Shown here: in pieces, positions 32,334-44,773 of the stretch | How the letters are laid out: each line of letters begins with the position of its first letter | Position numbering within the stretch: position 1 is the stretch's first letter | Source: Selenomonas sputigena | GTDB taxonomy: Bacteria; Bacillota; Negativicutes; Selenomonadales; Selenomonadaceae | Length of the DNA: 64,000 nucleotides | Direction of reading: 5' to 3' | NCBI RefSeq assembly: GCF_026015965.1 | Contig: NZ_CP110383.1 | Span: 405,808 to 469,807, forward strand | The notes under the pieces: generated by a model | Told to the model about the DNA's origin: nothing | Seen by the model: the letters and a program-made list of their open reading frames with translations, nothing else | Databases searched by the model: none | Made by a program: the position numbers and the translations under genes

Positions 32334-32381
32334 TTGCCTTGAAGCGAAAAAATTCGTACAATGGAGAAAAGGGGTGAGAAT

Positions 32382-33203
32382 ATGGGCGACTACAAGATCA
32401 AGCCGTGGGAAGAGTTGACGATTCGTGATGATTACATGTTCAAACTCGTTATGAGGCGCAGGCGCATTTGCAAGAAGATGCTTGAAGGAACACTTCGCAT
32501 AAGGATTGAGAAGATTCGGTATCTGGAAACGGAAAAGTCTATAACAGCACCTTATCGAAGCAAGGGAATACGCCTGGATGTCTACGTCAAGGATGAGAGA
32601 AATACAGTCTATAACATTGAGATGCAGATTCGGCGACTGGAAGGAGATGCGCTTTTCAAAAGGACACGATATTACCAGTCCATGATGGATGCCGATCTTC
32701 TCGCGGCGGGAGCGGATTACGATGAATTGAATAAAACAATCATCATATTCATCTGTCCCTTCGATCCCTTTGGTGAAGGGCGCTATATGTATACGTTTGA
32801 AAATATTTGTCTGGAAAATAAGAACCTCAATCTACTGGATGGTGCGACGAAGATTTTTCTCAATACGAAAGGACAGATCGGCGATATTGATGATACGATT
32901 CGCGCATTTCTGCAGTATGTTGACGGTGTAGTCACAGATAACAGCTTTGTGCAGGAGGTCGAAGAGGAAATTCGAAGAGTCAAGCTTGAAGAAGGAGAGA
33001 GGGTGAGTTACATGACATTTGCCATGAAGATGATGGAAGAACGCAAAGAAGGACGCAAGGAAGGACAGCGGGACGAGCGTGTGGCAATTCTACGGCGACT
33101 TGTTACGCAATCTCAAATTCCTGTCGAACAGGCTCTTGAGATGATTGGCATACCGCAGGCGGAGCATCTTTCGTATAAGAAGATGCTCCATGCGAAGCTG
33201 TGA
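32382..33203 (+). CDS. Rpn-family PD-(D/E)XK nuclease
   Basis: 273 residues from the ATG at 32382, which has AAGGGG upstream; an ATG at 32361 has no site. This is the Rpn (recombination-promoting nuclease, TIGR01784, formerly putative transposase) family. The nuclease core is visible: GIRLDVYVKDE with Asp66 and YNIEMQIRR with Glu80 and Gln82, followed by TRYYQSMMDADLL. The C-terminal part has the family's charged repeat (EERKEGRKEGQRDERVAILR) and a short conserved tail, IGIPQAEHLSYKKML. The DNA of that tail recurs 9230 bp downstream at the end of cas6. Rpn proteins act as phage-defence or recombination nucleases; this intact copy borders the CRISPR operon. Confidence 0.85.
   Translation: MGDYKIKPWEELTIRDDYMFKLVMRRRRICKKMLEGTLRIRIEKIRYLETEKSITAPYRSKGIRLDVYVKDERNTVYNIEMQIRRLEGDALFKRTRYYQSMMDADLLAAGADYDELNKTIIIFICPFDPFGEGRYMYTFENICLENKNLNLLDGATKIFLNTKGQIGDIDDTIRAFLQYVDGVVTDNSFVQEVEEEIRRVKLEEGERVSYMTFAMKMMEERKEGRKEGQRDERVAILRRLVTQSQIPVEQALEMIGIPQAEHLSYKKMLHAKL
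33131..33203 (+). repeat. Rpn 3'-end direct repeat, left copy
   Basis: The last 73 bp of the Rpn gene match 42361-42433 at 64 of 73 positions, in the same orientation and with an identical 14-bp start (GGCTCTTGAGATGA). Similarity ends abruptly at both sides. The pair brackets the whole type III effector operon. Confidence 0.9.
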
Positions 33204-33449: not shown

Positions 33450-35174
33450 ATGGCAATCAAATTGCAGGCGATTCTTTTTGATACGCGCTCGATTCAGAAG
33501 TATATCTTCGCGAGCAACCGCCTCAAGACGAATATAGGGGCGTCGTTCTTGGTGGAGAGCGCTTTTTCGCGCGAGCTGCTTCATGTTCTGCGCGAGCGTT
33601 TCGGTAAGGATGAAGTCGACGATGCAACGTGGCGCGAGGTGGAAGCTCCCGATTGGACGAAGATGGAGCAGAAGTGCCGCATCGGCTATATCGGCGGTGG
33701 CAACGCTCTCGTGCTGTTTTCTGAGGGAACGACGGATGAAGAACTCGTCGAGGTGATCAAATCCTTCACGAAGCGGCTGCTGTGGACGACTCCCGGACTG
33801 CGCACGGGAGCGGCGCGCGGCGAAATGGTGCTCGAAGCGGACGGCGCCTATCGCGTGACGCGCGTGAAGCGTGCGGATGGCGAGGAAGAGGCGATCGACG
33901 ATCTCACGCATCTCGTCCGCAAGCTCAGGGCGCAGCAGAACTTGTTCTTTCCTGCCGTATCGCTCCCCTATACGGGATTGACGCTTTCGTGCGAGGCGAG
34001 CGCGGAAACGGCGAATGCCTACGATGTGGACGATGTGCGCAAGGAGAGCCGCTTCCTTTCGTGGGAAGTGAAGAGGAAGCTCTTGGCGGCACGTCAGAAG
34101 GGGGGCGTCATCGCACCCGCTGAGGAAGCGCTTCTCGACAAGCTGCGCAGCATCCTGAGGGCACATGCCTTGGCGGGTGAGACGTTGCCGCCGTCGCGAG
34201 TCCGCGCTATGAGTGATCCCGAGGAATTGGCACGAGAGCTGCAAAAGTATGCTTTTCCTTCCGAGTTCGAGAAGCTCGGGCAGAGGGAGACGGAAGACTA
34301 CATGGCGATTGTCCATATCGACGGCAACAACATGGGCGAGAAGTTCCGTGACTGCAGCACACTGACAAAGCGCAAGAACATGTCGCGCGCCGTGTACTGG
34401 AAGACAGTTCTGGCGTTCTGCATGCTCCTTGCGGACATCTTAGGCGATTATGCGGCGATGCATAAGCATCTCTCACTGGAAGAAGCTGACGACGGCAAGA
34501 TGCTTCTGCCGATCCGCCCCATCGTGCTCGGCGGCGACGATATGACCTTCGTCTGCACGGCGAAGTACGCGCTCTCCTTCACGCGTACGATCATGGAAGC
34601 GCTCAATGACCTCGGCATCGATACTTGCGGCGGCGTCAGCATCCTGCCGACCGCCTATCCGTTCTTCCGCGGCTACGAGATTGCCGAGCAGCTTTGCGGT
34701 GCGGCGAAGTCGAAGATGCGTGCCATGCGCACGGAAGGAAGCTCGTGCTGGCTCGACTTCGCCATCCTGCACGGCGAGCAGCCGCCGACCTTGGAGCAAA
34801 TCCGCGAGCAGCAGTACAGCGGCAAGTGCGGTGCGATGCACTTCGGCCCCTATCGCGTCGACGGTGATGCATCGAAGCCCGAGTACGTCGGCAATCTCAT
34901 CGAGGCCGTGCGTCAGCTCGTGCAGGGTGAGGGACGCATGCCGATGAACAAGATCAAGGAACTGCGTGCCGTATTGGCGGCGGGCAGACATGAACATGCG
35001 CAATTCATGGCGCAGTATCACCGCTTGATTGCAAGTGGCGGAGCGATGCGCCTGCCCGAGATCGCGGCTTGGTCGTCGTACCGCGAATCTTTGTGGCAGG
35101 AGGGAAGGACGCCTTACGTCGACGCCATCGAGATGATCGACTTCTATGTGCCCGAGGAGGTGCAGCATGGCTAA
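33450..35174 (+). CDS. cas10: Cas10, HD-less, type III-D effector large subunit
   Basis: 574 residues, short for Cas10. It begins directly with the first palm-like domain (IQKYIFASNRLKTNIGASFL; YIGGGNALVLF at 80-90), with no N-terminal HD nuclease domain. The second palm has VHIDGNNMGEKF near 288 and an intact GGDD at 361-364 (VLGGDDMTFV), the site that makes cyclic oligoadenylates on target RNA binding. A helical C-terminal domain follows. Lack of the HD domain is a known trait of subtype III-D. It is the first gene of the effector operon and overlaps cas7 by 8 bp. No CARF-domain effector that would sense the signal is present in the window. Confidence 0.93.
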   Translation: MAIKLQAILFDTRSIQKYIFASNRLKTNIGASFLVESAFSRELLHVLRERFGKDEVDDATWREVEAPDWTKMEQKCRIGYIGGGNALVLFSEGTTDEELVEVIKSFTKRLLWTTPGLRTGAARGEMVLEADGAYRVTRVKRADGEEEAIDDLTHLVRKLRAQQNLFFPAVSLPYTGLTLSCEASAETANAYDVDDVRKESRFLSWEVKRKLLAARQKGGVIAPAEEALLDKLRSILRAHALAGETLPPSRVRAMSDPEELARELQKYAFPSEFEKLGQRETEDYMAIVHIDGNNMGEKFRDCSTLTKRKNMSRAVYWKTVLAFCMLLADILGDYAAMHKHLSLEEADDGKMLLPIRPIVLGGDDMTFVCTAKYALSFTRTIMEALNDLGIDTCGGVSILPTAYPFFRGYEIAEQLCGAAKSKMRAMRTEGSSCWLDFAILHGEQPPTLEQIREQQYSGKCGAMHFGPYRVDGDASKPEYVGNLIEAVRQLVQGEGRMPMNKIKELRAVLAAGRHEHAQFMAQYHRLIASGGAMRLPEIAAWSSYRESLWQEGRTPYVDAIEMIDFYVPEEVQHG

Positions 35175-36096
35175 AAAGAAGAACGCAAAGGAGGCGCGCG
35201 AAAACAAGAAGAAAGAGCTGCTGGCCAAACATGCCGAGAGTCGCAGACAGCAGATGGAGATGAACCAGCAGAAGCAGCAGGCAGCGCAAAGGCCTGCTCC
35301 GAGCGAGAGCAATGCGGCGGACGATGGCATGCCGACGCTGGAAGAACAGCTCAAGCGTGTGCCCAGGAACTCGTTTCCTCCTGTGCGACTCCCAGAGCAT
35401 CCCTTGGCTGAGTCCAAGGAGATTCGCTTCGACGAATTTACGCTGGAAGTCGCGGCGCTTTCACCGCTGCACCTCGGCTCGGGGCGCGCCGATGTCAACG
35501 TCGATGCTGAGGTCGTGCATGACCGGGCGGGATTGCCCTACTTCCCCGGAAAGCGGCTCAAGGGGCTCATTTACGAGAGTGCGCTGGAAGTCCTTGAGAT
35601 GTCCGAATTGGCAGGATTGAACCTCTTTACAGAAGAGGAAATGGAGGAGCTTTTCCAGCATAACGTGCAGAGCGATACACAGCTGACGATACCGAACCTT
35701 CACCTTGCGTCGGAGGAAGCAGCGCGGCAGATGGAAGAAGACTGGCTTTACCTGCAGCAGCACTATCCCGACCTCGTCTCTGCGCAGGATGTTCTTTCGC
35801 TCTATACCTCGCTGCGCTATCAGACGATGATTGACCGTGAGACAGGTACAGCTGCCGAAACGTCGCTCAGGAACATCCGTGTCGTCGATGAAGGGCTCAC
35901 GTTTTGCGGCACGGTACGCCTCAAAGGAGGAACGCGGAAAAAGCTCACGATTCTTGCGCTGGCGCTGCGCAACCTCTCGCATGCCGGCATGAAGCGCAAT
36001 CGAGGCTTCGGCCGCATATCGTGCGCGATGCTGCAGCATGGGAAAGATATACGGAGCGTCCTCGTCAATGAAGCGCTGAAAGGGGGCAAGGTTTGA
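35167..36096 (+). CDS. cas7: Cas7-like RAMP (Csm3 group) with charged N-terminal extension
   Basis: 309 residues from the ATG at 35167 (GAGGAGG upstream), overlapping cas10. The first 65 or so residues are a Lys/Glu/Gln-rich probable coiled coil (KEARENKKKELLAKHAESRR) not normal for Cas7. The RAMP core follows: LSPLHLGSGRADVNVDAEVV with Asp113 at the position of the RNA-cutting aspartate of Csm3, then GLPYFPGKRLKGLIYE, and the glycine-rich loop MKRNRGFGRISC near the C-terminus. It should form part of the crRNA-binding backbone and cut target RNA. The next gene starts one base after its stop. Confidence 0.85.
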   Translation: MAKKKNAKEARENKKKELLAKHAESRRQQMEMNQQKQQAAQRPAPSESNAADDGMPTLEEQLKRVPRNSFPPVRLPEHPLAESKEIRFDEFTLEVAALSPLHLGSGRADVNVDAEVVHDRAGLPYFPGKRLKGLIYESALEVLEMSELAGLNLFTEEEMEELFQHNVQSDTQLTIPNLHLASEEAARQMEEDWLYLQQHYPDLVSAQDVLSLYTSLRYQTMIDRETGTAAETSLRNIRVVDEGLTFCGTVRLKGGTRKKLTILALALRNLSHAGMKRNRGFGRISCAMLQHGKDIRSVLVNEALKGGKV

Positions 36097-36097
36097 G

Positions 36098-37744
36098 ATG
36101 AAAAAGATCCGTGTAAAAATAGAGACCCTTTCGCCGATCGTGCTGGCGACGCGCACCAATACGACCGTCATGACGTCGTCGCACGATTTCTTCAGCGGCA
36201 CGCTCGTGCGCGGTATGCTGGCCGAGCGCTACATTGAAGCGAAGAATCTTGGCAGTCAGGCGCAGGAGGACGAGAATTTTCTCGGACTCTTCTTCGACAA
36301 ACTGCGCTTCGTCGCCGCCTATCCCGTGCGTGCGTTGGATGGAAAGCGCGCCTCCTTTGTGCCCGCTTCGGTGCAGCGCCTCAAGGACGGAGAGGCGGTC
36401 AGGGACTTGCTCGCAGATGCTCCCGAGGCAGGGTACAAGACATTGCGCGGCTTTGCCGTGATCGAAGACGGCGGCATCGAGAAGGTGGATGTCGCAAAGA
36501 ACATATCGCTGCACATGAGCCGCAGTAACGTCAAGGAACGGCAGGGCAAGGAGAGGGGAAGCTCGTCCTTGGAGCGTCTTGCGGGACGTTCGCGCGACGG
36601 CGCGATCTACAACTATGAAGCTGTAGAGAAAGGCGTGCGCTTCGAAGGCGAAGTCTTCGGTGAGGATGCGGCGTTGGAAAGCTTCATGGACGCCTTGGGA
36701 ACGGCTTCATGGACGGCGCAGGCGGGGCGTGCGCGCCATGCGCAATACGGCGCCTGCCGCGTACAGCTTGAGCCGGTGGAATTCATGCCTGAAAGCGTCG
36801 AGCCGGATGTGGACAATCGCATCAATCTGCGTCTAGAGACGCCGCTTCTCGCGGCGGATGACCTCCTGTCGAGCGCTGCTGTGGCTCTGCAGCAGATCGT
36901 TGACCGCCTCAACGAGGGCACTGCGGGAGAGTTTTCCCTTCACGCCTACGATCCAAAGCGGAGTGCAGCACAGGGAGATGTGGAAAACACGGTCTTTGCC
37001 GATTTTGTCGAGGTGGACAACTTCGTAGGCATCTGGGGCATGAAGCGCCCGCGCGCCGTTGCCCTCGCGGCAGGAAGCGTCTTTGCCGTAGAGAAGGAGA
37101 GCGCGTGGACAGAGAGCGACAAGGAGCGACTGCAAAGACTGCTGTACGATGGCGTCGGCGTACGCACGGAAGAGGGCTTTGGTCAGCTTCGCCTCTGGCA
37201 TCTGCAGCCGCTTTCCCTCGCGAAGAGGATGCAGCAAAAGGAACGGCGTGCAGTCAAGTCGCCCGAGGTGCGCAGGCGGGCGAAAGAACTCCTCCTCTGC
37301 GCGGCGCAGCGGAAGATGGTCGTCTATGCGGCGGAAGATGTGCAGAAGCTCACGGGGGGTAAAGGGGTATCGCACTTTTTCGCACGACTCGATTCGATGT
37401 GGATGCGTGGACGGGCAAACATGCAGGGAGCATTGCGCGAGGAAATCCGCAGTCAGAAAAGCAATGCGTCGACGCCCTTTGCCAAGAATCTAGAGGCGAT
37501 CAAGTTCAACGGGCGCTCCTTGGAGGAACTTTTGATGAAGGCGAATCTCGCCGATATGCCGTACAACAAGGAACGTCGTTGGAAAAAAGAGCTGGGCGAA
37601 GATCTCGAGGCATTCCTGGAAGATGTAGGCGAGCCGGACTTCCTGACGAGCGGCACGGCGCAGGACGCGCTCTTCTATGCGTATTGGCACAATTTCTTCC
37701 GCTTCGCGAGAAAGGCAGCGGCAGGAAAAGGAGGCGAGGAGTGA
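36098..37744 (+). CDS. csx10: Csx10 (Cas5-like RAMP) with helical C-terminal domain
   Basis: 548 residues. The N-terminus (IETLSPIVLATRTNTTVMTS, then HDFFSGTLVRGMLAERYI) matches Csx10, the subtype III-D marker. The glycine-rich RAMP loop GVGVRTEEGFGQLRLW lies near residue 350. The last 160 residues (from about 385) look almost all helical and basic (AAEDVQKLTGG, MWMRGRANMQGALREE, YNKERRWKKELGEDLEAFLE). No separate small-subunit (Cas11) gene exists in the operon, so this tail is a candidate fused Cas11. The gene overlaps the next by TGATG. Confidence 0.82.
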   Translation: MKKIRVKIETLSPIVLATRTNTTVMTSSHDFFSGTLVRGMLAERYIEAKNLGSQAQEDENFLGLFFDKLRFVAAYPVRALDGKRASFVPASVQRLKDGEAVRDLLADAPEAGYKTLRGFAVIEDGGIEKVDVAKNISLHMSRSNVKERQGKERGSSSLERLAGRSRDGAIYNYEAVEKGVRFEGEVFGEDAALESFMDALGTASWTAQAGRARHAQYGACRVQLEPVEFMPESVEPDVDNRINLRLETPLLAADDLLSSAAVALQQIVDRLNEGTAGEFSLHAYDPKRSAAQGDVENTVFADFVEVDNFVGIWGMKRPRAVALAAGSVFAVEKESAWTESDKERLQRLLYDGVGVRTEEGFGQLRLWHLQPLSLAKRMQQKERRAVKSPEVRRRAKELLLCAAQRKMVVYAAEDVQKLTGGKGVSHFFARLDSMWMRGRANMQGALREEIRSQKSNASTPFAKNLEAIKFNGRSLEELLMKANLADMPYNKERRWKKELGEDLEAFLEDVGEPDFLTSGTAQDALFYAYWHNFFRFARKAAAGKGGEE

Positions 37745-39171
37745 TGGCGATGAGCGAAGAGAGTATCAAGAGCAAGGTCATCCTCAAAGGCACGCTCGTC
37801 CTCGATGCGCCGCTCCTCATCGGTGCGGGCGGCAGCGGTGCAGGCAATGAGATCGATACCGAGGTGCTGAAGACAAAAGCAGGACAGCCGTTCATCCCCG
37901 GCACATCGCTCGCCGGAGCGCTGCGAGACTTCATGACAGCGGAAAATGCGCTCGGCATGCGTCTGCTCTTCGGCACAGAAGCCGCGTATGAAAGACAGCA
38001 TAATGCGGCTTGGCAAAGCTCCATCCGCATCGACGACGTCAAGCTGAACAACGTGGAAATCGTCGTGCGCGACGGCGTGAGCCTCGACGAGATCACGGGC
38101 ACGGCAATCGAGCATCATAAGTTCGACTACGAGGCGGTGGGCAGCGGCGCGACGGGGAAGTTCTTCGCCGAGATCACGCAGCGCGGCATCCATGAGAGGT
38201 ACGAGGACGCTATGAAGGAGGCGGTTGACCTCTTGGCGCATAGACTCGCTGCAGGGTTCTCCCTGGGTGCACATACGGCGAAGGGCTTTGGCGAAATACA
38301 TGTGGGGGAGTTGAAGGTCTACCGCTACGATTTCAAAAATCCCGATCACGTCAGAGCTTGGCTTGGCTCAGAGGGAAAGAGCGAAGCTCTCGTCGAGCCG
38401 GAAGTATACGAACGACAGAAGGGCTTCTATGCCAAGGACGACTGCGTGCTCGAAGCGAAGTTCGCCTTGAAAAGCTCGCTTCTCGTGCGCGACTATGCGC
38501 GTGCTATGGAGGTGAAGACGGCAGAGCGCATGGATGATAAGGGGACGTCCGTGCAGGCGCTCATGCTGCGCGAGAACGATCATTGGCTGATTCCCGGCGC
38601 GAGCATCAAGGGGGCGCTGCGTCATCGCGCGGCGGAAATCCTGCGCAAACTCGATATCGACAGCACACTGCTCGACCGCATGATGGGGCCTTCGCTCGAT
38701 CGCATCAAGGAGAAGCCTGCGGAGAAGTGGAAGAGCCATCTGCTTGTCTCGGAAGCACGCCTCGAAAATGGCGTTGTGACGGGACTGCAGACGCGCGTGC
38801 GTATCGACCGCTTCACGGGCGGCAAGATTGACACGGCCCTTTTCGCCACGGCTCCCATCTGGCAGAGGGAGAAAGAGGGAGCGGCGCTTTCCATGCGCCT
38901 TGTTCTGCATGAGCCGAAGGAAGAGGAGCGCGCCTGGCAGATCGGCCTTCTGCTCCTTTTGCTCAAGGAATTGTCACTCGGCAGACTGGCGCTCGGCGGC
39001 GAGAAGGGCATCGGCCGCGGTGTGCTTGAGGGAAGAGGCGCCGTCCTGCATTATCATGGTGAGGAAATTGCCTGGGATGCGACGCCCGGCGCCTTGACGG
39101 ATGAAGAGAGACGGAAATTGCAGGGATTCGTCGAAGCCCTGCTGAAAAAGAGGGAGGCGAAAGCTCTATGA
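37744..39171 (+). CDS. Double Cas7 (two fused Csm3-like RAMP units)
   Basis: 475 residues from the ATG at 37744, 9 bp after AAAAGGAGG. Two RAMP units are joined. Unit 1 (about 1-210) has LLIGAGGSGAGNEIDTEVLK with Asp38 at the catalytic position, then GQPFIPGTSLAGALRDFM and the loop HTAKGFGEIHVG. Unit 2 (about 235-475) has DHWLIPGASIKGALRHRA and the loop LGGEKGIGRGVLEG but no acidic residue at the equivalent place (VQALMLREN). The Cas7-2x of the cyanobacterial III-Dv complex has the same layout. It would supply two backbone positions, one predicted to cut RNA. Confidence 0.85.
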   Translation: MAMSEESIKSKVILKGTLVLDAPLLIGAGGSGAGNEIDTEVLKTKAGQPFIPGTSLAGALRDFMTAENALGMRLLFGTEAAYERQHNAAWQSSIRIDDVKLNNVEIVVRDGVSLDEITGTAIEHHKFDYEAVGSGATGKFFAEITQRGIHERYEDAMKEAVDLLAHRLAAGFSLGAHTAKGFGEIHVGELKVYRYDFKNPDHVRAWLGSEGKSEALVEPEVYERQKGFYAKDDCVLEAKFALKSSLLVRDYARAMEVKTAERMDDKGTSVQALMLRENDHWLIPGASIKGALRHRAAEILRKLDIDSTLLDRMMGPSLDRIKEKPAEKWKSHLLVSEARLENGVVTGLQTRVRIDRFTGGKIDTALFATAPIWQREKEGAALSMRLVLHEPKEEERAWQIGLLLLLLKELSLGRLALGGEKGIGRGVLEGRGAVLHYHGEEIAWDATPGALTDEERRKLQGFVEALLKKREAKAL

Positions 39172-39767
39172 GCATCGAACTGGCATTGGAAGATCAGATG
39201 TGCATACAGCAGGGAAGCTCAGAGAGGCTCGCCGTAAGTCTCGCGAGGAAGGAAGCCGCCCTCTGCGAAAAGCTCGAAGTGCTCGGCATGAAGGAAGCGA
39301 ATGTCGTCGTCTGGCAGGTGCACGGCATCACTTGGGGACGCTGGCAGAACGGCTCGCTCAAGCTGGCAGGCGATGCGGCTAAGAAGTGCAGCCTGTGGCT
39401 GGAACTGCGCGTATTCAACGAGGAAGAAGAGCTTCATTTGAAGAAGAGCGGCGACATGTGGCTCGGGCGTTGGCGCAAGGACGGCGCGGGCGAGGCGACG
39501 GAATACGTTGACAGCATCTCACGCTTCTGGGGCGAGAGAGTAGAGGCAGCGGATGCGCCCGAAGGCTATATGAAGCTCGAAGATGCAGCGCGAAAGCTCA
39601 AGCAGATTTTGCCGCAGGCCGAAGAGCGCGCGAAATACTACGGCTTGGTGACGCGCAGCTATATCGGCTACGAGGCGACGGGGCAGGCCGGCTATGCGGA
39701 CTATCGCTATGTGCGCATAGCGGCGGCGGATGTGGAAGGAGGTATGGAAGATGGCAATGCGAGATGA
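39168..39767 (+). CDS. csx19: Csx19-like type III-D protein (TIGR03984 type)
   Basis: 199 residues starting at an ATGA overlap with the double-Cas7 gene. Features: an aromatic-rich N-terminal half (VVVWQVHGITWGRWQNG, WLELRVFNEEEELHLKKSG) and a C-terminal segment ITRSYIGYE-like (GLVTRSYIGYEATGQAGYAD). Position and general pattern fit Csx19, which sits with csx10 in III-D loci and is a structural subunit in III-Dv. No catalytic motif is visible. The assignment is partly from context. Confidence 0.7.
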   Translation: MSIELALEDQMCIQQGSSERLAVSLARKEAALCEKLEVLGMKEANVVVWQVHGITWGRWQNGSLKLAGDAAKKCSLWLELRVFNEEEELHLKKSGDMWLGRWRKDGAGEATEYVDSISRFWGERVEAADAPEGYMKLEDAARKLKQILPQAEERAKYYGLVTRSYIGYEATGQAGYADYRYVRIAAADVEGGMEDGNAR

Positions 39768-41565
39768 AAAAGCCACGGCATCGTACAACTTCGTGCCGCT
39801 GCCAGCGACGGTCATCCGTTCGCCCATCGACGGCGGTGCGAAGAATGATGCAGAACGGCAGGAAAACTACAAGAGATATGTGAAGGAACATGGCAGGCTC
39901 AGCGGCTATATTGAGCTGAGCTGCCGCACGATGACGCCTGTCTTCATCGGCACGGGCGACAAGGAAGGCGCGTTCTTCGCCCCCGTCGGCAAGCCCGTCC
40001 TGCCGGGCAGCACGCTTCGCGGCATGGTCAAGAACATCTTCAAGATCGTGACCTGCGGCGCGATGCGCACGATGAAATCCGATGTTGTGGGCGGTCAGCG
40101 ACAAGATTTCGATGTCGACAATCGGAGACTCTACTTTCGCACTGTAGCTGCGAAAAAGAACAGTCTCACGAAACTCTATGATGAAGAATTGCTCGAAAGG
40201 ACTGATACGGATGAAGATGGCGAGCGGATCAGCATAACGAAGGCGGAAGCAGCGTTTCTCGTCCATGACAGCCAGGATGGAAACCATTACATGTGCCGTG
40301 CCGAATATCGCCATAAGAAGGTCGAAGATAAAGGTTTTCTTAAGCACAATGCAGGAAAGATCCTTTGGGAAACGTACGAAAGGACGGGAGAACTTCCCTG
40401 CTTTACCGGCGCGATGTTTTCCAAGAAGCGCTATACCGTGCATTTCAATCCAGACTGGAATGACCGTGTGCTTGTCACGCCGGAGGTTATAGCGCAATAC
40501 AAAGAAGATCTTTTGCGCAGCGATGTCTTGGATTTGTTCAAGCTGGCGCGCAAGAATGAGGAGGCAAGGAACTTTACGGGAGATGATCGCTATGATTTCG
40601 TTGTGCCTTGCTTTTACAAGAATGAAAATGGCACGGTGAAACATTTCGGGTTTGGGCAGTTCTATCGTATTTGCTACCCTTATCGGCTTGGTGAGGCAGG
40701 GCATATTCCCGAGATCCTTCAGTCGAAAGCCGTTGATTATGCGGATGCGCTTTTTGGTCGCACGGAGCTTTGGGGCAGCCGCTTGTTCTTCGAGGATGCT
40801 GTGCTCAAAGAAAGCAAGGGATTTGAAGGGCAGCATTACTCGAAAACCTTGGGCGAGCCGAAACCCACGTCGTTCCAGCTCTACATGAAGCAAGAAGATG
40901 GAAAGAATCTCAATCACTGGGGCACGGAAAATGCCGCGATTCGCGGCTACAAGCTGTATTGGCATCAGAAGCCGGGTTTTCGCTGGCAAAAAGACGGCGA
41001 CGTGAAGGACAATGTTGACCGCAAATTGCGTCCCTTGAAGGCGGGCAATGTGTTCAAGGGTAGAATACGCTTCAAGAACCTCAGCGAAGTGGAGCTTGGC
41101 GCATTGCTCAAGGTCTTTTCGCTCGCGGCAAAAGATCGCGAGCTTTGCTTCAAGATCGGACAGGGCAAGGGCATCGGGCTCGGCAGCGTGCGCATCGATG
41201 CGAAGCTCGTTCTCGTGGACGAGGTGCACGGCTATGAGCAGCTTTTTGCGGCGGACGGCGACTGGAACAAGGCGGAAAAAGAAACTTCGATGGAAGCATA
41301 TCTGAAAGCCTTTGATGATGTCATCGCACAGCTCGGCAAAACGGAGCGGGCGCGCTATGAATTGTCACAGCAAGCTCTGCTCGATCTTCTCGATTGGAAG
41401 GCTGTAGAGCAGAAGGACTGGGCGGCGAGGACGCGGCAGATGACCTTGGGTGACAGGGATTCTTCTGATCGTGACGAAGTTTCCGACGCAGAGAAAAAGC
41501 AATTCCGCAATCGTTGGGTCTTGCCGACGGCGCATGAGGTATATGATGAAGGGATAGGCAAATGA
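39751..41565 (+). CDS. Large RAMP protein, TIGR03986 type (Cas7 with insertion)
   Basis: 604 residues from the ATG at 39751, about 8 bp after GGAGG, overlapping csx19 by 17 bp. The N-terminal RAMP half has SCRTMTPVFIGTGDKEGAFF and VLPGSTLRGMVKNIFK; the C-terminal RAMP part has the loop FKIGQGKGIGLGSVRI near residue 475. Between them lies an insertion of several hundred residues, which makes it much larger than a plain Cas7. The catalytic-aspartate position is occupied by Ala/Phe (EGAFFAPVG), so it is predicted not to cut RNA. It corresponds to Cas7-insertion of III-Dv. The last four bases of the gene overlap cas6. Confidence 0.82.
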   Translation: MAMRDEKATASYNFVPLPATVIRSPIDGGAKNDAERQENYKRYVKEHGRLSGYIELSCRTMTPVFIGTGDKEGAFFAPVGKPVLPGSTLRGMVKNIFKIVTCGAMRTMKSDVVGGQRQDFDVDNRRLYFRTVAAKKNSLTKLYDEELLERTDTDEDGERISITKAEAAFLVHDSQDGNHYMCRAEYRHKKVEDKGFLKHNAGKILWETYERTGELPCFTGAMFSKKRYTVHFNPDWNDRVLVTPEVIAQYKEDLLRSDVLDLFKLARKNEEARNFTGDDRYDFVVPCFYKNENGTVKHFGFGQFYRICYPYRLGEAGHIPEILQSKAVDYADALFGRTELWGSRLFFEDAVLKESKGFEGQHYSKTLGEPKPTSFQLYMKQEDGKNLNHWGTENAAIRGYKLYWHQKPGFRWQKDGDVKDNVDRKLRPLKAGNVFKGRIRFKNLSEVELGALLKVFSLAAKDRELCFKIGQGKGIGLGSVRIDAKLVLVDEVHGYEQLFAADGDWNKAEKETSMEAYLKAFDDVIAQLGKTERARYELSQQALLDLLDWKAVEQKDWAARTRQMTLGDRDSSDRDEVSDAEKKQFRNRWVLPTAHEVYDEGIGK

Positions 41566-42374
41566 TCGGTGCTGTTGTCTATCGGCTGCGGGCAGAAGAT
41601 ACTGCCCGTGTGCCAGTTTTTCACGGACGTTGGCTGCATGGGCTGTTCTTCAAGATTATGGAAGGATATTCGGCGGAGCTTTCCACCTATGTCCATGAGA
41701 CGCTTAACGTAAAGCCGTTCACCGTGTCGCTCCTCAAGTGGCGGCAGGAAAAAGACGAGGGCGGCTATCGTGTGGTTACCAGGGGCGAGAGCCTGAGCTG
41801 GCGCGTCACGGCGCTTCGGGAGGACGTATTGCAGGCGGCGCTCCATGTTCGCACGGGCGAGGTTCTGCAAGCGGGGAATTTGCCGCTTCGCGTCGAGAAA
41901 GTCAAGGCGGACGGCACAGAGGATTCGGGCGTCGTCGATGAGATGGAGCTTGTCGGCGCGGCGCTCCAAGCAGGGCGCATCGCGGAACTTCGTCTGCGCT
42001 TCCTCTCGCCCGTCGCCTTTCGCCGCGACGATAAGGACTATCCGACGCCTGATCCCGTCTTCATCTTTTCGTCGCTTGCCGACAAGTGGCAGCAAGCCGC
42101 CATGCCCGTGGAGATGGATCGCGCCTGGGTTCGCGAGGCGGCGGCGAGGGCGCTTCTGGCAGAATGGCACGGCAGCTCGCGCCGCGTCTACTTCGGCGGC
42201 GACCGCGGCATGCTAGCGTTCTCGGGCAGGTTCAGCTACGATGTCACGGCTTTGAATGAAGAAGAGCAGCACGCACTCCTTCTCCTCGCCCAATTCGCCA
42301 ACTTCTCCGGCGTTGGCAGACTCACGGGACAGGGATTTGGCGAGACGCGGGCGATGTATCGGCTCTTGAGATGA
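41562..42374 (+). CDS. cas6: Cas6 pre-crRNA endoribonuclease
   Basis: 270 residues. VPVFHGRWLHGLFFKIM near the N-terminus holds candidate catalytic histidines, LSPVAFRRDDKDYPTPDPVFI and FSSLADKWQQA are typical of the second domain, and the glycine-rich loop FSGVGRLTGQGFGETRAMYR closes the protein. It cuts the array transcript inside each repeat. The ATG overlaps the preceding stop (ATGA). The final Leu-Leu-Arg and the stop codon lie inside a 73-bp remnant of an Rpn gene, so the natural C-terminus may have been lost or replaced. Confidence 0.9.
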   Translation: MIGAVVYRLRAEDTARVPVFHGRWLHGLFFKIMEGYSAELSTYVHETLNVKPFTVSLLKWRQEKDEGGYRVVTRGESLSWRVTALREDVLQAALHVRTGEVLQAGNLPLRVEKVKADGTEDSGVVDEMELVGAALQAGRIAELRLRFLSPVAFRRDDKDYPTPDPVFIFSSLADKWQQAAMPVEMDRAWVREAAARALLAEWHGSSRRVYFGGDRGMLAFSGRFSYDVTALNEEEQHALLLLAQFANFSGVGRLTGQGFGETRAMYRLLR

Positions 42375-42433
42375 TCGGCATACCGCAGGCGGAGCAGCTG
42401 TCGTATAAGAAAATGTTGCAGGCGACGCTGTAA
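42361..42433 (+). pseudogene. 3'-end remnant of an Rpn-family nuclease gene
   Basis: The frame reads ALEMIGIPQAEQLSYKKMLQ and ends at TAA 42431-42433. It matches the tail of the intact Rpn gene at 33131-33203 (64 of 73 bases), including the conserved IGIPQAE motif. Nothing upstream of it is Rpn-like: the sequence switches directly to cas6, whose stop TGA (42372-42374) is within the remnant. The divergence indicates a different Rpn paralogue rather than a fresh duplication. Confidence 0.88.
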
Positions 42434-42448
42434 GAGCGGCAGAAGAAG

Positions 42449-42477
42449 CGGGAACGCTCCCTATGAGTGTTCCCGCC
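42449..42477 (+). terminator. Possible terminator after the effector operon
   Basis: CGGGAACGCTC and GAGTGTTCCCG form an 11-bp stem with one G-U pair around a short loop. The downstream CCTTTGCGTTT is only moderately T-rich, so strength is uncertain. It lies between cas6 and the array promoter. Confidence 0.5.
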
Positions 42478-42513
42478 TTTGCGTTTGCAGAGAAAGAAAT
42501 TCCGCAAGGGATA

Positions 42514-42542
42514 TTGACAGCAGTTCAACTTCATGCTATACT
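42514..42542 (+). promoter_or_regulatory. Promoter in the CRISPR leader
   Basis: TTGACA (42514-42519), 17 bp, TATACT (42537-42542). It points into the array, about 217 bp before the first repeat, and should drive the pre-crRNA. Confidence 0.8.
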
Positions 42543-42759
42543 TCATTACAGTGAAGTCTGGGATTTGCGAGAAACTGCCATGAGTTTTAGGTTTTCCTTG
42601 TGGACAAAAGTTTCCTTGATATTGCTGGCTTCACACCCCTTTTGAACCGCTTTTTGCGACAAAAAAGTTCCCTGAGGTTTGGGGAAAAGTGCAAAAAGGG
42701 AGGGAGTATTAGAAAACCTATTTCTGGGTTCACTGTTTTCAAGGGTTCTGGGAGACAGT
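42543..42759 (+). other. CRISPR leader
   Basis: A 217-bp AT-rich, non-coding segment between the array promoter and the first repeat. It contains purine-rich runs (AAAAAGGGAGGGAG) and ends in GGGAGACAGT directly before the repeat. New spacers would be added at this end, since the degenerate repeat is at the other. Confidence 0.75.
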
Positions 42760-43438
42760 ATTGCATGCAATCCATACCGCTTGCGGTATTGAAACACAGA
42801 ACCTTCTGGTTAGGTCTTACCTCTACACGATTGCATGCAATCCATACCGCTTGCGGTATTGAAACTCAACTCCCTCTTCCACTTTTTCCCTTCCCAATTC
42901 ATTGCATGCAATCCATACCGCTTGCGGTATTGAAACTTCATCAAACATGCCAATCGTTGCGGACAGGCGGAATTGCATGCAATCCATACCGCTTGCGGTA
43001 TTGAAACAATTTTATGTTTGTCTTCAGCAGGGACAATAAATTTATTGCATGCAATCCATACCGCTTGCGGTATTGAAACGATTACGCTCAATCTGCGAGC
43101 AGATCAGCGACTTCATTGCATGCAATCCATACCGCTTGCGGTATTGAAACGCTGATTTTGTTTACGAATACTACAAATTTGTTCATATTGCATGCAATCC
43201 ATACCGCTTGCGGTATTGAAACTGTTTAACTGGTTAAACCCCGCTTGCTTCAGAAGCATTGCATGCAATCCATACCGCTTGCGGTATTGAAACAAGATTT
43301 TTCCTATTTTAGGAATCAAATACAACCGCATTGCATGCAATCCATACCGCTTGCGGTATTGAAACTAGCCTCCATTGGTGTTGTCAGCACCAATGTTTTC
43401 CAATTGCATGCAATCCATACCGCTTGCGGTATTTTTTT
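42760..43438 (+). CRISPR. CRISPR array, 10 repeats of 36 bp and 9 spacers
   Basis: Repeats start at 42760, 42830, 42901, 42972, 43044, 43115, 43187, 43258, 43330 and 43403. Nine are identical 36-mers that begin with the palindrome ATTGCATGCAAT, contain the hairpin ATACCGCTTGCGGTAT and end in ATTGAAAC, the classic 8-base crRNA handle. The tenth matches for 31 bases and then turns into a T-run. Spacers are 34-37 bp and all different; they match nothing I recognise. The array reads rightward from the leader and lies between cas6 and cas1. Confidence 0.98.
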
Positions 43439-43446
43439 TATTTTTC
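43418..43446 (+). terminator. Terminator formed by the degenerate last repeat
   Basis: The repeat hairpin ATACCG-CTTG-CGGTAT (43418-43433) is followed by eight T, an A and five more T, where the other nine repeats have GAAAC. It fits an intrinsic terminator for the pre-crRNA and ends transcription before cas1. Confidence 0.75.
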
Positions 43447-43526
43447 GGTGCGTTTTTTTCAAACGGCCGCTTTTTTTATGGCATAATGGAGCTATCGAAA
43501 AAAAATCTTTCCGGGGAGGGATAGCG

Positions 43527-44501
43527 ATGTGTGTCATTTATATGATGTCGGAGGAAACGAAAGCGATTAAGGATCATGGCAGGTTGATTCTTTATCGTAG
43601 GGATGAGAAGGTGGCGAGCCAGCCGATTCGTCATATTTCGGGTGTCGTGGTGACGAAGCAGGCGCATATAACGATGCCGCTGGTCTATGCCCTGTTGGAG
43701 GAAGGGATTCCGATTTCCTACATGGATTTTCGCGGACGCGTTTTGGGCGTCTTGGGCGGGGAGCAGATTTCTCTTGAGCATCTGTTTCGACAAAAAGAGG
43801 TGATGGAGCGCCCGAAGGAGCAGATTCGGCTCGTACGGGAGATTGTCTGCCGCAAGATTGGCAGCCAGCGCAGGCTGCTTAAGGAGTACAGCTATCGTGA
43901 ACGGGAACTGCAGGCGATGGCGGCCATCGGCCGTCTTGCCGCATGTGCACATAAGGCGAAATATCTGATGGATCTAGAGGTGCTGCGCGGCATGGAGGGG
44001 GCAGCGTCGAGGGCCTATTTTTCGGCATTTCCGTGTCTGCTTAATGAAAAGATTTGGCGCTGGGAAGGTCGTGCGCAGCATCCAGCGCACGATGCGGTCA
44101 ATGCGCTTTTGAACTACGGCTATGCGTTTCTTGAAAAGGAAGTGCGTCTTGCTTTGGCGGGCAGCGGACTGGATGCGCGTTTGGGCTTCTTTCATGCGAA
44201 CAACGGACGCAAGGATAGCCTCGTCTACGACATGATGGAGCCGTACCGCCATGATGTGCTCGACCGTCTCGTTTTGAATCTCCTTCGCGGCGGGTCTTTC
44301 ACGCCCGATGATTTTTTTGTGACGGGTGAGGAGTGCCGTCTTTCGCCAGCAGCGAAGAAGATTTGGGCGGCGCACTATGAAAACTATATGGAGAAACCGA
44401 CGGCACGCTATGACGGGCTTTCACCGCGTGAGATGATTCGCCGCGAGATAGAAAACTTCGGCACTCGGGTTTTAAGGAAGAAAGGGGATGGTGACGTATG
44501 A
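43527..44501 (+). CDS. cas1: Cas1 integrase
   Basis: 324 residues from the ATG at 43527, six bases after GGGGAGGG; a much longer frame begins inside the array and was rejected. The N-terminal beta domain (RLILYRRDEKVASQPIRHIS) is followed by the helical catalytic domain with Glu in LRGMEGAASRAYF, His in ARLGFFHANNGRKDSL and the acidic partner in VYDMMEPYRHDVLDRL. It integrates new spacers with Cas2 at the leader end of the array. It has its own message start after the array terminator; CATAAT near 43481 is a possible -10. Confidence 0.95.
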   Translation: MCVIYMMSEETKAIKDHGRLILYRRDEKVASQPIRHISGVVVTKQAHITMPLVYALLEEGIPISYMDFRGRVLGVLGGEQISLEHLFRQKEVMERPKEQIRLVREIVCRKIGSQRRLLKEYSYRERELQAMAAIGRLAACAHKAKYLMDLEVLRGMEGAASRAYFSAFPCLLNEKIWRWEGRAQHPAHDAVNALLNYGYAFLEKEVRLALAGSGLDARLGFFHANNGRKDSLVYDMMEPYRHDVLDRLVLNLLRGGSFTPDDFFVTGEECRLSPAAKKIWAAHYENYMEKPTARYDGLSPREMIRREIENFGTRVLRKKGDGDV

Positions 44502-44773
44502 AATTTCTCATTGGTTATGATATTGCCAGCAATCGCGTTCGCTCGCGTGTGGCGAAGTATCTGGAAGGCAAGGCGTACCGCATCCAATACAGTGTGTTTC
44601 TCTTTGAGGGGACGGAGCGCGAAGCGCAGGAGATTCGTGCGGCTTTGCTCACCTTGACGGAGAAGGAGGAAGGCCGTGCACTCTTCATGGCGCCGATGTG
44701 CGAGGCTTGCTGTGCGCGAATCTGGAAGGCGGGGAAGATGAGGGAGGAGGACGAGATTTGCATTGTGGCATAG
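44498..44773 (+). CDS. cas2: Cas2
   Basis: 91 residues, starting at an ATGA overlap with the cas1 stop. MKFLIGYDIASNRVRSRVAK shows the first strand with its aspartate, and IQYSVFLFEGTEREAQEIRA the second strand and helix of the ferredoxin-like fold. It bridges two Cas1 dimers in the spacer-integration complex. Standard Cas2 length. No cas4 or reverse transcriptase gene is linked. Confidence 0.93.
   Translation: MKFLIGYDIASNRVRSRVAKYLEGKAYRIQYSVFLFEGTEREAQEIRAALLTLTEKEEGRALFMAPMCEACCARIWKAGKMREEDEICIVA

Follow-up and report, generated by a model that had tools for sequence, protein, structure and literature searches.

Does the last repeat of a type III-D CRISPR array also serve as the terminator of its own transcript? 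The question is raised by a locus of Selenomonas sputigena, located in a stretch of 64 kb (hereafter, the window), in which an array of ten 36-nt repeats (42760-43438) sits between cas6 and cas1-cas2 and the final repeat runs into a tract of T. In a first-pass annotation, this repeat was described as a textbook intrinsic terminator that had gained a regulatory function.

The array and its terminal repeat

The locus contains the following features:

33450-41565, + strand: type III-D effector genes (Cas10, Csm3-like, Csx10-like, Csx7-like, Csx19, TIGR03986), from profile matches
41562-42374, + strand: cas6, TIGR01877 over cut-off
42514-42542, + strand: leader promoter, TTGACA-17-TATACT with TG, 11/12 consensus bases
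42543-42759, + strand: leader, kept across 8 leaders
42760-43402, + strand: nine identical 36-nt repeats and nine spacers of 34-37 nt
43373-43399, + strand: terminator-like hairpin (10 bp, -11 kcal/mol) and TTTT in spacer 9, passing the strict terminator test
43403-43438, + strand: terminal tenth repeat, 31 bases identical to the others, then TTTTT for GAAAC
43417-43432, + strand: inner hairpin ATACCG-CTTG-CGGTAT, putative Cas6 hairpin and putative terminator stem
43432-43445, + strand: T-tract, T8-A-T5, the first T closing the stem
43446-43477, + strand: second hairpin, CGGTGCGTTT-TTTTC-AAACGGCCG, -6.7 kcal/mol, one base bulged, followed by C and T7
43458-43487, + strand: promoter-like site TTCAAA-18-CATAAT with an extended -10, 9/12 consensus bases, candidate promoter for cas1
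43527-44501, + strand: cas1, 324 aa, TIGR00287 at E 1.1e-59, over cut-off
44498-44773, + strand: cas2, 91 aa, TIGR01573 over cut-off

The locus is of type III-D, as it encodes Cas10 with Csx10- and Csx19-type subunits together with Cas6. Csx19 (TIGR03984), TIGR03986 and Cas6 all score over their cut-offs, Csx10 (TIGR02674) reaches E 1.2e-16 yet stays below its own cut-off, and the PADLOC matches are to Cas10d and III-D profiles. An Rpn-family nuclease gene precedes cas10 in the window (32361-33203) and follows cas6 (L074) in G001, the sole genome of the same genus among the 380 of the class that were searched; moreover, a piece resembling the 3' end of the Rpn nuclease gene trails cas6 in the window, at about 42375-42434. 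These positions of the gene and its fragment suggest a rearrangement around the III-D operon.

The leader promoter is found upstream of all seven arrays of this genome that carry the same repeat, as well as upstream of a single-repeat remnant in G001, and approx. 220 leader bases are conserved before all seven own-genome arrays. The conservation of promoter and leader before 7/7 arrays indicates that the array is transcribed towards cas1. No boxA-like motif was recognized in the leaders with the crude patterns used, Rfam gave no match in 42300-43700 at E up to 0.1, and no viral contig was found to carry the 25-base repeat core. Each repeat opens with a perfect 12-base palindrome, ATTGCATGCAAT (at 42760-42771 in the first repeat), through which neighbouring repeats are predicted to be able to pair in the transcript.

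Repeats 1-9 are identical, and the tenth differs from them solely in its last five bases. The tract consists of eight T (43432-43439), one A (43440) and five T (43441-43445); the unaltered repeats already have the first two of these eight T. Across both strands of the window, the tract is alone among 14-mers in containing 13 or more T. The first-pass annotation had these letters right, and only the end that it gave for the feature, 43446, lies one base beyond the T-run. Its statement that the change destroys the crRNA handle also holds: the leader-distal repeat differs from the consensus in handle bases, and ATT alone remains of the 8-base handle ATTGAAAC.

Stop- and start-like elements before cas1

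Both strands of the window were scanned for hairpins with a dG of -4 or lower and a T-score of 4 or more, which yielded 11 hairpin-plus-T sites in 64 kb. The T-score of the terminal repeat, 6.08, is the highest among them; in six dinucleotide-shuffled versions of the + strand, the number of sites was 0-2 and no T-score reached 5.5. The hairpin lies immediately 5' of the U-tract (43417-43445), as in an intrinsic terminator. Its 6-bp stem is, however, among the two weakest of the 11 (-5.3 kcal/mol when complete and -4.2 as trimmed by the scan, the next weakest being -4.3 and the other nine -5.9 to -35.9) and falls short of the -6 kcal/mol cut-off used in the survey described below. The word "textbook" is therefore too strong for a site that joins the best T-tract of the 11 with so weak a stem.

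The predicted fold depends on how much of the transcript is included. When the last repeat is folded alone, a different structure is preferred and the pair probability of the inner hairpin is 0.28-0.34; with spacer 9 added, it is 0.24-0.29. When repeat 9, spacer 9 and the last repeat are folded together, the probability rises to 0.83-1.0, because the palindromic ATTGCATGCAAT halves of the adjacent repeats pair with each other.

The first-pass annotation missed three further elements, namely the second hairpin with T7, the spacer-9 hairpin and the promoter-like site for cas1. The second hairpin begins 8 bases past the repeat (stem 43446-43469) and is overlapped by the promoter-like site, the first hexamer of which lies inside the hairpin. 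Of the nine spacers, spacer 9, the oldest, is alone in passing the strict terminator test. At the junction of array and cas1 there are thus up to three elements that look like stops and one that looks like a start. With the second hairpin and its T7 as well as the spacer-9 hairpin present, the main stop may lie outside the repeat; in particular, the spacer-9 hairpin could halt the polymerase before the last repeat is made. In the survey, strict-terminator hairpins occur in 4/90 last spacers vs 25/2718 internal spacers, a count made after the hairpin of spacer 9 had been seen and useful as a lead only.

Array ends in the same genome, a relative and the wider group

The six other arrays of this genome have 1-3 changes in the last repeat, none of which creates a T-run, and in five of the six the handle is almost unchanged (TTGAAAC or TTGAAAA). 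Suppression of extraneous crRNAs as a rule in this genome is therefore not supported. Among the five distinct ends of these six arrays, four have a strict separate terminator and the fifth has a hairpin without a T-tail. One array, L006, contains repeated spacer blocks (two spacers alternating and another present in three consecutive copies), which points to recombination between repeats.

The flanking DNA of G001 is mostly 93-98% identical to the window. At the matching place, the array, cas1-cas2 and the effector genes are absent, and cas6 and the block 43417-43496 are kept. Over these 80 bases identity is 77.5%, and ATACCGCTTGCGGTATTTTT, comprising the hairpin and T5, is unchanged (20/20 bases). 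By our own arithmetic, 20 unchanged bases are expected approx. one time in four at 93% identity; thus, the identity of ATACCGCTTGCGGTATTTTT is no proof of selection. The second hairpin of G001 has altered letters, still folds (-6.2 kcal/mol) and is followed by T6. The second hexamer of the promoter-like site, i.e., the -10 box, is also kept, though no cas1 follows, and the only Cas1 relative that G001 encodes is 28% identical to that of the window. The simplest account is that T took the place of GAAAC before the two species separated; the feature probably goes back further than one species. Other places in G001 involve array ends. At approx. 2324 kb (L075), a leader is followed by one repeat, its handle changed, and by a terminator with a perfect hairpin; this arrangement resembles the end of an array in the window's genome and is probably an array collapsed to its end. 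At L038 and L041, last repeats of another repeat type end, as judged by eye, in the base of the next terminator hairpin, so that repeat and terminator overlap.

Relatives of the window Cas1 at E 1e-20 are encoded in 75/189 genomes of the family. The family set, drawn from part of the Cas1 places and from places found by the repeat core, comprised 72 loci, of which 52 were usable (6 arrays were cut and 5 ambiguous) and 49 were left after those with N near the end were dropped. The phylum set, taken from part of the listed Cas1 places and mostly from the top of the list, comprised 60 loci, of which 38 were usable (14 cut, 11 ambiguous) and 36 were left; two of its loci (L178, L197) belong to the window's family. 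A Cas1 search of genome contigs gave two distant MAG loci, which were set aside. Arrays had at least 3 repeats, were oriented by GAAA[CGT] or GTAAC at the repeat end, and were counted once when last repeat and flank were identical. Repeats were compared from the 5' end, a comparison that treats truncation and substitution alike. The strict scan covered -20 to +100 nt from the end of the last repeat with a cut-off of -6 kcal/mol and allowed mismatches but not bulges.

Among family arrays with related hairpin-TTGAAAC repeats, a strict terminator was found in 20/29 (0.9 expected in shuffles), although these rows are not independent, as several arrays come from one genome and 5 of the 29 ends besides that of the window are from its own genome. 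A control region 400-520 nt downstream gave 1/29, and the leader side gave 0/28. No strict terminator was found at the family I-C-like (0/15) or GGAAAC (0/5) arrays; in the phylum set, they were present at 2/22 other arrays and 1/14 I-C-like arrays. The window array is not among the 20, since its repeat hairpin fails on energy and its second hairpin on the bulge; the rule was not loosened for it. This contrast between related-repeat and I-C-like arrays makes array-end architecture testable by subtype. In many related arrays the predicted stop signal is separate and lies just past the array instead of in the repeat.

Altered handles were found in 24/29 of the related-repeat family arrays, so that these arrays mostly end in an altered handle at a predicted terminator. 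Handle changes are common in other groups too (family I-C-like 8/15, GGAAAC 5/5; phylum other 14/22, I-C-like 5/14); thus, this repeat class is not distinguished by having its last handle altered. In terminal repeats of the class, a mean of 3.14 of the 8 handle bases is changed vs 1.90 over the rest of the repeat, the corresponding means for internal repeats being 0.011 and 0.049.

Two of the 85 arrays, that of the window and L084, combine a hairpin within the last repeat with a T-tail after it, and the long T-run is present in the window array only. L084 has T4, and its last repeat nominally ends right at the start codon of a cas2-like gene (identified by eye). The pattern of hairpin plus six T occurs in 2/380 genomes of the class, one being the present genome and the other carrying it in a coding sequence without CRISPR, which rules out wide conservation of the fused form in the class.

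A possible mechanism and its relation to known array ends

On balance, we lean towards the view that the terminal III-D repeat acts as a natural intrinsic terminator embedded in a repeat and paired with a conventional one just downstream, and that the promoter overlapping the second hairpin restarts cas1-cas2. RNA polymerase would start at the leader promoter and transcribe the array, and the last repeat would form the same inner hairpin that Cas6 presumably recognizes in the other repeats. With a U-tract following this hairpin, a good part of the transcripts may stop at the last repeat, and the conventional hairpin with U7 just downstream would catch the read-through. The promoter overlapping that second hairpin would then start cas1-cas2 afresh. 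As the 5' handle AUUGAAAC is absent from the last repeat, no extraneous crRNA should be cut there, and the crRNA of the oldest spacer would keep an ordinary 3' hairpin, made by termination and not by Cas6. We infer termination in the cell, its sharing between two or three hairpins and any benefit. The hairpin and T-tract (with the highest T-score of the window), the loss of the handle, transcription towards cas1, the predicted formation of the hairpin with repeat 9 included, the hairpin with T5 in one relative, the terminators and altered handles of family arrays and the E. coli construct of PMC4499155 all speak for this reading. The weak stem, the failure of the window array in the strict scan, the other fold of the repeat alone, the spacer-9 hairpin, the six sister arrays without a T-run, the rarity of hairpin plus six T in the class and the dependence on a single relative from which the array is gone count against it. 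A functional reading of the terminal repeat is plausible, with the stop probably shared with the adjacent conventional terminator, and the repeat may have gained a regulatory function in this sense.

A bolder proposal, about which we are doubtful, is that the repeat was exapted for two purposes: the Cas6 hairpin would be the terminator stem, the 3' end of the last crRNA would be set by RNA polymerase, no extraneous crRNA would form, and the array would be insulated from cas1-cas2. If so, one small change would stop transcription, avoid a useless guide RNA and give the oldest spacer a proper 3' hairpin; to our knowledge, this would be the first natural case of a repeat-terminator design built in E. 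coli. Neutral erosion, in which the oldest repeat decays and its last bases merge into a T-rich flank, has a similarly modest chance of being correct; the stop would then be the second hairpin or the spacer-9 hairpin, to which the fusion adds little. Such decay would accord with the concentration of changes at the 3' end of terminal repeats of the class and with the separate downstream terminators that are usual in the family, as well as with the second hairpin, retained in G001 despite its changed letters, and the spacer-9 hairpin, strong enough to pass the strict test. It does not readily account for a T-tract that starts exactly at the stem end and is the strongest in 64 kb, or, as a weak argument resting on 20 bases, for an unchanged hairpin with T5 in an 80-base block that has otherwise diverged.

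It is unlikely that there is no real stop at the repeat and that the array is co-transcribed with cas1-cas2 and separated from it by Cas6. This may hold in relatives, since the arrays of L043, L084 and L102 end 0 to approx. 40 bases before a cas2-like start (a visual call on the reading frame) and none of them has a terminator by the strict scan; in the window, however, two hairpin-plus-T elements and a promoter-like site stand between array and cas1. Long T-runs are generally error-prone, and a homopolymer error in sequencing or assembly might be suspected; such an error is very improbable here, as GAAAC is wholly absent, which goes beyond a run of odd length, and G001 has T5 at the same place.

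The closest counterpart is an engineered one. In the E. coli type I-E system, a repeat hairpin followed by eight T gave robust termination in vitro, and the construct yielded, in E. coli, a crRNA that was functional, albeit less efficient, in the absence of Cas6e; the authors considered it, to their knowledge, the first demonstration that a CRISPR repeat with a T-tract is a highly efficient terminator (PMC4499155, in the passages on this construct). The window likewise has a repeat hairpin fused to approx. eight T. Whereas the hairpin of that artificial, single I-E unit is a terminator that makes the crRNA 3' end, the window holds the natural end of a ten-repeat III-D array with T8AT5 and a second hairpin, where termination is predicted.

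Extraneous crRNAs and altered extra repeats are described, in the relevant passages, for type V-A (PMC6610086), in general (PMC13187072) and for type II-C (PMC12080349). As in these cases, the extra repeat is altered here and an extraneous crRNA should not form; those accounts name mutations as the means and, for II-C, also a hairpin or a terminator placed upstream of the array, whereas in the window the alteration itself supplies the T-tract. The creA antitoxin genes offer a further parallel, in that a downstream repeat-like element was degraded or lost where a terminator had evolved for the RNA 3' end (PMC8501985, as far as its account of creA goes). Unlike the window array, creA belongs to a haloarchaeal minimal array with an antitoxin role, and its repeat was replaced instead of being retained as a terminator stem. 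The family arrays with related repeats resemble the window in having a predicted terminator no more than 100 nt from the last repeat, but use a stronger hairpin that is not part of the repeat. No natural repeat-terminator at an array end was found in the open-licence literature that was searched. We class the feature with known array ends, as a natural variant whose nearest counterpart is an engineered design.
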